64,000 bases of DNA, taken from NCBI RefSeq assembly GCF_023347275.1, contig NZ_CP094468.1, forward strand, positions 1,488,001 through 1,552,000, written 5' to 3'. The translations under genes were made by a program, and so were the position numbers. The notes under the pieces are model-generated. The model ran no database searches. It worked only from the letters and a program-made list of their open reading frames with translations, and had not been told where the DNA came from. Below are positions 47,270 through 49,675 of the stretch, in pieces; the first letter of the stretch is position 1; each line of letters opens with the position of its first letter. The stretch is from Faecalibacterium sp. I3-3-89. Lineage in GTDB: Bacteria; Bacillota; Clostridia; Oscillospirales; Ruminococcaceae.

Positions 47270-47296
47270 ATTATATCATCGACCCCCCCGGCTCAA
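47270..47296 (-). promoter_or_regulatory. Na/Pi gene promoter with G7 tract in the spacer
   Basis: Minus-strand TTGAGC (47291-47296), then a 15-nt spacer including GGGGGGG (47283-47289), then TATAAT (47270-47275) with an extended TGA. The spacer is two bases short of optimum, so tract length could tune expression. Confidence 0.55.
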
Positions 47297-47922: not shown

Positions 47923-47952
47923 TTGATTTTTCCCCCGCAGATGTGGTACATT
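47923..47952 (+). promoter_or_regulatory. Candidate promoter for the secreted repeat protein
   Basis: TTGATT (47923-47928), 18-nt spacer, TACATT (47947-47952), about 62 nt before the ATG at 48015. Confidence 0.45.
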
Positions 47953-48067
47953 CAGAATAATCAGATGTTCCCCGTTTTTACCATTTATTTTCACCATTCA
48001 AAGGAGGTTTTTGTATGCTGTCTTATCGTAAGCTTGCGATGCGTGTTCTGGGTCGGCCTCTCCATAC

Positions 48068-48075
48068 GGGGGGGG
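48068..48075 (+). repeat. G8 homopolymer tract that breaks the reading frame
   Basis: Eight G residues lie 54 nt after the ATG at 48015, which follows AAGGAGG. With G8 the frame stops at TGA 48123-48125. With G9 (or G6) it runs into the main frame and gives a complete signal peptide. It is therefore a candidate phase-variation switch. Confidence 0.75.
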
Positions 48076-48133
48076 TAACGATTCACCCCGTCCGGCCTCT
48101 CAGCGGGCAGCGGCGCTTATCCTGACTGCCGCA

Positions 48134-49675
48134 ATGCTCACTACCCTTACCGCCCCGGCCTTTGCAAAGGAATGGTACATCGAAGAAGGTGACATCACCG
48201 TGAGAGCAGGTGAGACCGAAGGGACGAACAAGGTCTCACAAGGGGAGAATCCGGAGGTGGAAGACACCAACACCGTTATCACAAATAGTGACAAGGACAA
48301 AGCTTCTTCCAACACCGTGACCATCGAGGCCAAAGATAAGGACGATAAGGTAGAGGTCACACTCAAGGATGTGAACATCGACACCAGCAGCCGGAGCGAA
48401 GCCGCCGTGAGCGTGACTGGCGAGGGCAATACCAATATCGAGCTGGATGGCGACAACGCGCTGAAGAGCGACATCTACAGCAGCGGCATCTCCAGCAGCG
48501 GCAGCCTCACCATCTCCGGCGGCGAAAATGACAGCCTGACGGCCCAAGGCGGCAGCGGCGCAGACGGCATCTATAGCAGCGGCAGCCTCACCATCTCCGG
48601 CGGTACGGTCACTGCCAACGGCGGCAGCGGCGGCGGCGGCGACGGCGGCGACGGCATCTGGAGCAGCGGCGGCGTCACCATCTCCGGCGGTAGTACGGTC
48701 ACTGCCAACGGCGGCGACGGCAAAGACGACTACGGCGGCGACGGCATCCGCAGCGACAGCGGCGACGTCACCATTTCCGGCGGTAGTACGGTCACTGCCA
48801 ACGGCGGCAACGGCGGCAATGTGAGCGGCGACGGCATCCGCAGCGACAGCGGCGACGTCACCATTTCCGGCGGTACGGTCAAAGCCGCTGGCGGCGACAG
48901 CAAAGACGGCTACGGCGGCGACGGCATCCGCAGCGGCGGCGTCACCATCTCCGGCGGTACGGTCAACGCCGCTGGCGGCAACGGCGGCAAAGTCGGCGGC
49001 TACGGCATCTGCAGCTTCGCCCGTGTCGCCATCTCCGGCGGTACGGTCAACGCCGCTGGCGGTAACGGCAAAAACAGCAACGGCGGCAGCGACGGCATCA
49101 TCAGCAACGATATCGATCTGTCGGGCAGCCTCGAGCTGACCGCCAAGGCCGGTAGGCCCAACGGCAAGGCCATCTCGTGGGCCGGCCATGAGCTTGACCT
49201 CGACACCATCAAGGACAAGCTGGGCCCGGGCGCAAAAGTCACCGCCACCGACGCTAATGGCGAAACCAAGCAGGTCTCTAGCCCCATCCCCCGTCCTGTG
49301 GAGCCGGAAGAGCCTGAGCCTGTTATCCCCGAGGAGTCTTCTTCCTCTTCTGACGGCGGCTCTGCCACCCCGTCCGCACCCGCCTCTCCCCTCCCCGGCC
49401 TGACTGTCACCGACAAGGACGGCCAGCGCATCTCCTACACGAGCACCCAGAGCGGCAATACTCTCACCGTCTGCGTCGGACGGCTCACAGCCTCCCTCCG
49501 GGCCTCGCTGGCCACCCTGCGTCAGCTGCGGGCTGAGGGCATCGACACCATCACCTTCCAGACCATCCTCTGCTCCACCACCCTCTCGGTGGACGAGCTG
49601 CTGGCGATGGGCGGCGAGGATGCCGAGGCTGTCCTGACCCACCGGTTCACCGATTCCAGCCTCACCGTGGGCTGA
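48134..49675 (+). CDS. Secreted beta-helix-like repeat protein, phase-variable start
   Basis: A 513-aa frame. The true start is probably ATG 48015 with AAGGAGG; one extra G in the G8 tract would add MLSYRKLAMRVLGRPLHT and restore the signal peptide that ends LTAPAFA. About seven repeats of 25-31 residues (48490-49110) share ISGGTVTANGG and GGDGIRS patterns, as in right-handed beta-helix carbohydrate-binding proteins (Cthe_2159-like). A Pro/Glu/Ser linker and a C-terminal domain follow. No LPxTG is seen. Repeat DNA at 48735-48880 is nearly identical between units, so unit number may also vary. Confidence 0.8.
   Translation: MLTTLTAPAFAKEWYIEEGDITVRAGETEGTNKVSQGENPEVEDTNTVITNSDKDKASSNTVTIEAKDKDDKVEVTLKDVNIDTSSRSEAAVSVTGEGNTNIELDGDNALKSDIYSSGISSSGSLTISGGENDSLTAQGGSGADGIYSSGSLTISGGTVTANGGSGGGGDGGDGIWSSGGVTISGGSTVTANGGDGKDDYGGDGIRSDSGDVTISGGSTVTANGGNGGNVSGDGIRSDSGDVTISGGTVKAAGGDSKDGYGGDGIRSGGVTISGGTVNAAGGNGGKVGGYGICSFARVAISGGTVNAAGGNGKNSNGGSDGIISNDIDLSGSLELTAKAGRPNGKAISWAGHELDLDTIKDKLGPGAKVTATDANGETKQVSSPIPRPVEPEEPEPVIPEESSSSSDGGSATPSAPASPLPGLTVTDKDGQRISYTSTQSGNTLTVCVGRLTASLRASLATLRQLRAEGIDTITFQTILCSTTLSVDELLAMGGEDAEAVLTHRFTDSSLTVG

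Follow-up and report, generated by a model that had tools for sequence, protein, structure and literature searches.

The locus lies on the forward strand of the window, by which we mean the whole 64-kb stretch of DNA analysed, and consists of a short leader frame, a run of eight G residues (G8) and a 513-codon frame, here called the body frame (Table 1). An earlier note on this DNA had described an AAGGAGG and an ATG at 48015 that open a frame running into the G8 tract and stopping at 48123, and all of these elements were re-read where it had placed them. In the closed state present in the window, the leader frame encodes a product of 36 residues. No run of G or C in the window is longer than this G8, which is followed in length by a single G7 and a single C7. 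The same note had held that the 513-codon frame lacks a full signal peptide, and this was borne out: the frame opens inside the signal-peptide core, and its first in-frame ATG (48134) leaves only an 11-residue signal remnant, MLTTLTAPAFA, in front of KEWYI, without a usable signal peptide. Between the last stop of the body frame and the G-run neither ATG, GTG nor TTG is present, which leaves the closed form no start codon immediately before the run. The part preceding the hydrophobic core is unusually long, amounting to 31 residues in the homologous protein P0020, with the core and its AFA site judged by eye.

Table 1. Features of the locus (window positions) and G-runs in promoter spacers (genome positions)
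Feature	Position	Strand	Remark
Candidate promoter	47923..47952	+	Consensus-like; TTGATT 47923-47928, 18-base spacer including C5, TACATT 47947-47952
Ribosome-binding site AAGGAGG	48001..48007	+	Also in the second copy and both F. longum loci
Leader frame, closed state	48015..48125	+	36 codons, then TGA; ATG 48015-48017, TGA 48123-48125
G8 run, proposed switch	48068..48075	+	Direct read; lengths vary in relatives
Putative signal-peptide hydrophobic core and AFA cleavage site, in the body frame	48107..48166	+	Translation, by eye
Body frame	48134..49675	+	513 codons; predicted mature start KEWYI at 48167
Tandem array	48556..49049	+	90-base unit, 5.6 copies (30-aa GGDGI/ISGGTV repeats)
Conserved C-terminal region (LTVTDKDGQRISYTS... 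to end)	49400..49672	+	Alignment A1
Promoter-spacer run, G12	719511
Promoter-spacer run, G10	753318
Promoter-spacer run, G8	1081733
Promoter-spacer run, G10	1744948
Promoter-spacer run, G9	1998019
Promoter-spacer run, G11	2170942
Promoter-spacer run, G10	2454807
Promoter-spacer run, G11	2630440
Promoter-spacer run, G9	2775586
Loci of the nine promoter-spacer runs			L042, L043, L045, L049, L051, L052, L053, L056, L057

That the gene encodes a beta-helix repeat protein, as proposed earlier, agrees with a match of the body to the Pfam family PF18889 (Beta_helix_3) above its cut-off; nothing besides PF18889 named the body in Pfam and NCBIfam. A profile of 25 sequences (alignment A1) gave a weak match in PDB to 4PEU (E = 0.0064). 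The entries 4PEU and 4PHB we take to be the beta-helix of Cthe_2159, the entry itself being labelled 'Uncharacterized protein', and the likeness between Cthe_2159 and the body in the window consists of this weak profile match. PF14262, the carbohydrate-binding family of Cthe_2159, was absent from the matches of three proteins at E values up to 1. Placement in the Cthe_2159 family was dropped, since the PDB match is too weak and PF14262 is unmatched; carbohydrate binding by the body would be a guess.

The genome, a single contig of 2.8 Mb, contains a second leader at 1476281-1476534, which is 95% identical over 255 bases. This second copy also carries a G8 run (1476461) and is also closed, ahead of a different beta-helix body. 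From the ATG through the G-run the two leaders differ at a single base, and the second copy has no ATG where the window gene has the one at 48134. Ordinary signal peptides, with no G-run in the leader, are seen in two further relatives between 1586931 and 1589256. Residues 423-513 of the body query also match a separate open frame of 220 aa at another place in the genome.

A back-translated SYRKLAMRVLG pattern found five exact matches in GTDB r220, a search from which records of the window's own genome were possibly omitted, and all five belong to named Faecalibacterium species: two loci in F. longum, two in F. hattorii and one in F. prausnitzii. The leader start M(L/I)SYRKLAMRVLG is conserved in these three other species, and the leader region is present in 4 of the 31 genomes of the genus, own genome counted. 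From these matches the bacterium of the window is taken to be a Faecalibacterium. At each of the five loci the leader start is joined in frame to the hydrophobic core and the AFA site, which answers the question raised earlier of whether the same N-terminus occurs in relatives in joined form. The leaders of F. hattorii and F. prausnitzii are joined without any G-run; therefore, the joined N-terminus is the working form. Upstream of the leader, the loci L098, L099 and L100 of these two species carry C9, C9 and C7, respectively, nine bases before TATAAT, and promoter switching of the gene family may occur in both species.

Tract length varies among the relatives as well. The present genome has G8 twice, one F. 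longum locus (L097) has G9 and the other (L096) has G7 followed by ATC; both F. longum loci are in frame, and G7 (then ATC), G8 and G9 are the only lengths seen as DNA. As the earlier note had proposed for the window, the leader of L097 is joined through G9 to the hydrophobic core and the AFA site. L096 is likely the counterpart of the window gene, because the locus at C24:22064 in genome G012, which we equate with L096, adjoins a match to the window's Na/Pi transporter gene (C24:21431).

These loci also bear on programmed ribosomal frameshifting or transcript slippage at the G-run, by which G8 genes would still yield protein. The leader frame does offer a slippery G GGG GGG, with the body in the -1 frame at G8. 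However, RNA structure around the run does not exceed chance (z = 1.03), the homologs of F. hattorii and F. prausnitzii require no frameshift, and several tract lengths occur. We consider frameshifting improbable and rejected it as the main reading for want of RNA structure beyond chance, although a low-level leak through ribosomal or transcript slippage is possible and would soften the OFF state.

The frame was followed in further homologs by two protein searches whose queries lacked the leader, which should keep frame from setting the ranking. The first query was the body frame of the window, which still includes the 11 residues that end the signal core, common to all frames; the second was the mature body of the second copy. 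Proteins were classed as open (leader joined to the core), as read in the third frame, or as starting internally. Among the best 120 of 7970 proteins in the first search, 105 were open, 6 were in the third frame and 9 had an internal start. The best 120 of 7986 in the second comprised 57 open proteins, 41 in the third frame and 22 with an internal or downstream start. The internal-start proteins (9 and 22) were put in the G8 class by exclusion alone. Tract lengths implied by the peptides, with their glycine codons taken as a G-run as in the DNA seen, were G6 (4 proteins), G9 (5) and G10 (6) among the best 120 of 7970, and G7 (2), G9 (28), G10 (29), G12 (3) and G13 (1) among the best 120 of 7986; the remaining 105 and 57 proteins, respectively, comprise internal starts along with other or interrupted tract forms. 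In a third search the joined leader was part of the query, which favours open forms by design: all 120 proteins listed were open and none of 11 identical-body sets was mixed, and it was left out of the proportions.

Proteins with the same body occur in different frames. Sets of identical bodies mixed frames in four of five cases in the first list and in seven of nine in the second, 11 of 14 together, where P0245, P0247 and P0273, which have no leader end, were excluded from the second-list sets and kept in the frame count. For example, an identical stretch of 586 aa is common to P0250 (internal start), P0251 (ON, G9 implied) and P0252 (third frame, G10 implied), and among nine proteins with the same 577 aa the peptides imply G7, G9, G10, G12 and G13. 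Length and frame are polymorphic among proteins that are otherwise identical. The two states named earlier as speaking against a switch, a frame that is always closed or G9 as the sole true form, are disfavoured by these identical bodies in different frames. For two of the first list's four mixed sets, the ON partners all carry another short leader allele (GGSG), and these partners may have arisen by recombination or in more than one step rather than by slippage. Removal of one 30-aa repeat from the mature protein of the window gives exactly P0020, which is open, its peptide implying G9. The block missing from it falls within the tandem array, and the array makes change in repeat number a second source of variation.

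The mixed sets also weigh on the suspicion that G8 is a sequencing or assembly error and that the real sequence is always in frame. Homopolymers are error-prone, both copies in the one assembly show the same closed length, and assembly or PCR error at the run may explain any single entry. Against this, third-frame proteins form another length class (6 and 41 among those listed in the first and second search), all three frame classes occur with identical bodies, and two other genes of the assembly, for an acyltransferase and a hexapeptide transferase, have in-frame G9 runs within them. Given identical bodies with mixed frames, we disfavour assembly error and regard it as extremely improbable.

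Among the 105 open proteins of the first list, 96 carry other, mostly short or interrupted forms of the tract; therefore, many strains look locked ON. The same observation could be read as if long runs were being lost, the closed forms representing decaying pseudogenes and the run merely a mutation hotspot. We judge this very improbable: closed alleles keep full-length bodies identical to open ones (a listing that favours intact bodies), long runs are found at each of the two loci and beyond a single species, and frame changes are scattered across the trees of the bodies. The first-list tree, built from 119 of the 120 proteins plus the window (P0104, in which no mature start was found, being left out), requires at least 13 frame changes, compared with a mean of 15.2 for shuffled states and as few in 21 of 500 shuffles. 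For the 120 proteins of the second list plus the second copy, at least 44 changes are needed (shuffled mean 49.4; as few in 11 of 200). Frame state is weakly tied to ancestry, with weak clustering on both trees. The many changes lend indirect support to reversible switching at a high rate within a clone.

It is highly probable, in our view, that slipped-strand contingency switching takes place at the G-run, within the N-terminal signal-peptide part of an exported beta-helix repeat protein. Two features by which contingency genes are recognized are found here: a simple repeat is sited between the start codon and the signal core, and length is polymorphic among close relatives, with several lengths implied for identical bodies. 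Translation would begin at ATG 48015. With G8, reading would continue out of frame to the stop after 36 codons, so the gene would be OFF, the state in the window. In runs that are multiples of three (G9 as DNA; G6, G9 and G12 from proteins), the leader would join the core and the AFA site, and the protein would be made and exported (ON); G7, G10 or G13 would be read in the third frame and again be OFF. Replication slippage would change the length of the run and thereby shift the join between leader and signal core. Very probably, the G8 run acts as a switch that turns the gene on and off reversibly. We infer slippage as the cause, reversibility at a high rate, export by ON cells and a role at the cell surface; that expression follows tract length is likewise inferred from the frame. 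The polymorphism of length and frame, the identical bodies and the joined leaders support the earlier suggestion that the G8 tract acts as a phase switch which is OFF in this sequence.

Strains of Faecalibacterium, a key beneficial gut commensal, attract study both as markers of health and as candidates for live products. If its surface proteins indeed flip at random, members of one clone would vary in how the immune system recognizes them and in their sensitivity to phages, and a reference genome would display one among many states.

Comparable switches have been described in other bacteria. The closest among the papers listed reports that a G-tract in Bifidobacterium breve UCC2003 switches a sortase-dependent pilus, as established by experiment and in mice (PMC9187656). 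Both cases appear to share an intragenic G-run in a beneficial gut commensal, a tract length that decides on a surface structure and a range of lengths in the population. They differ in that the genes there encode pilins, whereas the gene here encodes a beta-helix protein known from sequence alone; by eye, the window protein has no LPXTG-like end. In Neisseria and Campylobacter, poly-G contingency genes with repeat runs in reading frames are reported (PMC3786947, PMC6321876). There, as here, runs in frames would switch surface functions, with many such loci per genome; unlike the present case, those systems have a long experimental record, whereas here the run lies inside a signal-peptide leader of a commensal Firmicute. 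The inlA gene of L. monocytogenes is reported to have a 5′ poly(A) tract at which a frameshift truncates the product (PMC2831843). It resembles the window gene as a Firmicute surface-protein gene with a run near its 5′ end and truncation by frameshift, and differs in its poly(A) and its protein family. Among the open-access papers listed, judged by title and start of abstract, with preprints and most subscription journals lying outside this set, we found no description of slippage switching in Faecalibacterium. The locus represents an established type of switch, of which the literature searched gave no account for this bacterium.

The wider value lies in the set of G-runs rather than in the window run alone. 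On both strands of the whole genome (2.8 Mb), 62 overlapping matches merged into 19 G-runs of eight or more. Nine of the 19 sit between a TTGACA and a –10-like hexamer (Table 1) and are candidate promoter switches. At eight of these nine, the spacer is 16-23 bases long and a lipobox gene lies 40-86 bases downstream. At the ninth (1744948) the two elements are 30 bases apart; a sugar transferase gene (PF02397) lies ∼500 bases downstream of this run, with a 108-aa frame intervening. One promoter allowed two species to be compared: that at 753318 and its match in genome G012 (93% identical) have G10 versus G9, with a spacer of 16 in both.

We lean towards the view that Faecalibacterium runs a genome-wide poly-G phasome made up of G-runs in reading frames and G-runs in the spacers of lipoprotein promoters. 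The reading-frame kind would comprise the window leader (twice), the acyltransferase and the hexapeptide transferase. If so, which lipoproteins, repeat proteins and sugar-polymer enzymes a given cell shows would be left to chance. The candidate switched genes listed here for Faecalibacterium can be put to the test.

Further runs were seen in the same genome. Locus L048 has G9 in an Acyl_transf_3 gene and in the neighbouring hexapeptide transferase gene (1736199 and 1736869), both in an open frame. G23 follows T9 at L041 (genome 25948-25970), and G11 follows T9 at L054 (genome 2563457). On the minus strand of the window, a G7 (47283-47289) lies between TTGTTG and TATAAT upstream of the Na/Pi cotransporter gene. 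With a simple pattern, this run was recovered as G6, G5 and G4 in three of eight relatives' loci and not found in five, and on these grounds it was not counted as a switch.

Across the genus, the pattern TTGACA-N(4-16)-G7-TA gave 44 matches in 16 of the 31 genomes, and its reversed version gave none in the same 31. Nineteen of the 44 share one repeated sequence, TTGACACC followed by G9 or G10, and are not independent. This TTGACACC-G9/10-TA element occurs in G001, G003, G004, G006, G008, G010 and G016, with up to eight per genome, and 6 of the 19 matches lie within 150 bases of a contig start. Among 13 TTGACACC loci, five have more than 1000 bases after the motif; a lipobox gene follows in three by pattern and at L072 by eye.

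The same promoter design exists in further genera of the family, partly before exported proteins. TTGACA-N(6-16)-G7-TA matched 52 times in 20 of 297 genomes and 14 of 95 genera, own genome and genus counted, and a control pattern matched nowhere in the 297 genomes. Other genera account for 42 of the matches, of which 20 loci were read: by eye, seven (L101-L105, L108 and L119) are followed by a clear signal peptide or lipobox, and the other 13 are not or could not be judged. The genera g44 and g33 (G073, G147; G141, G261) have four to eight promoter-type G-runs per genome, and all five loci read in g44 precede signal-peptide proteins, again by eye.
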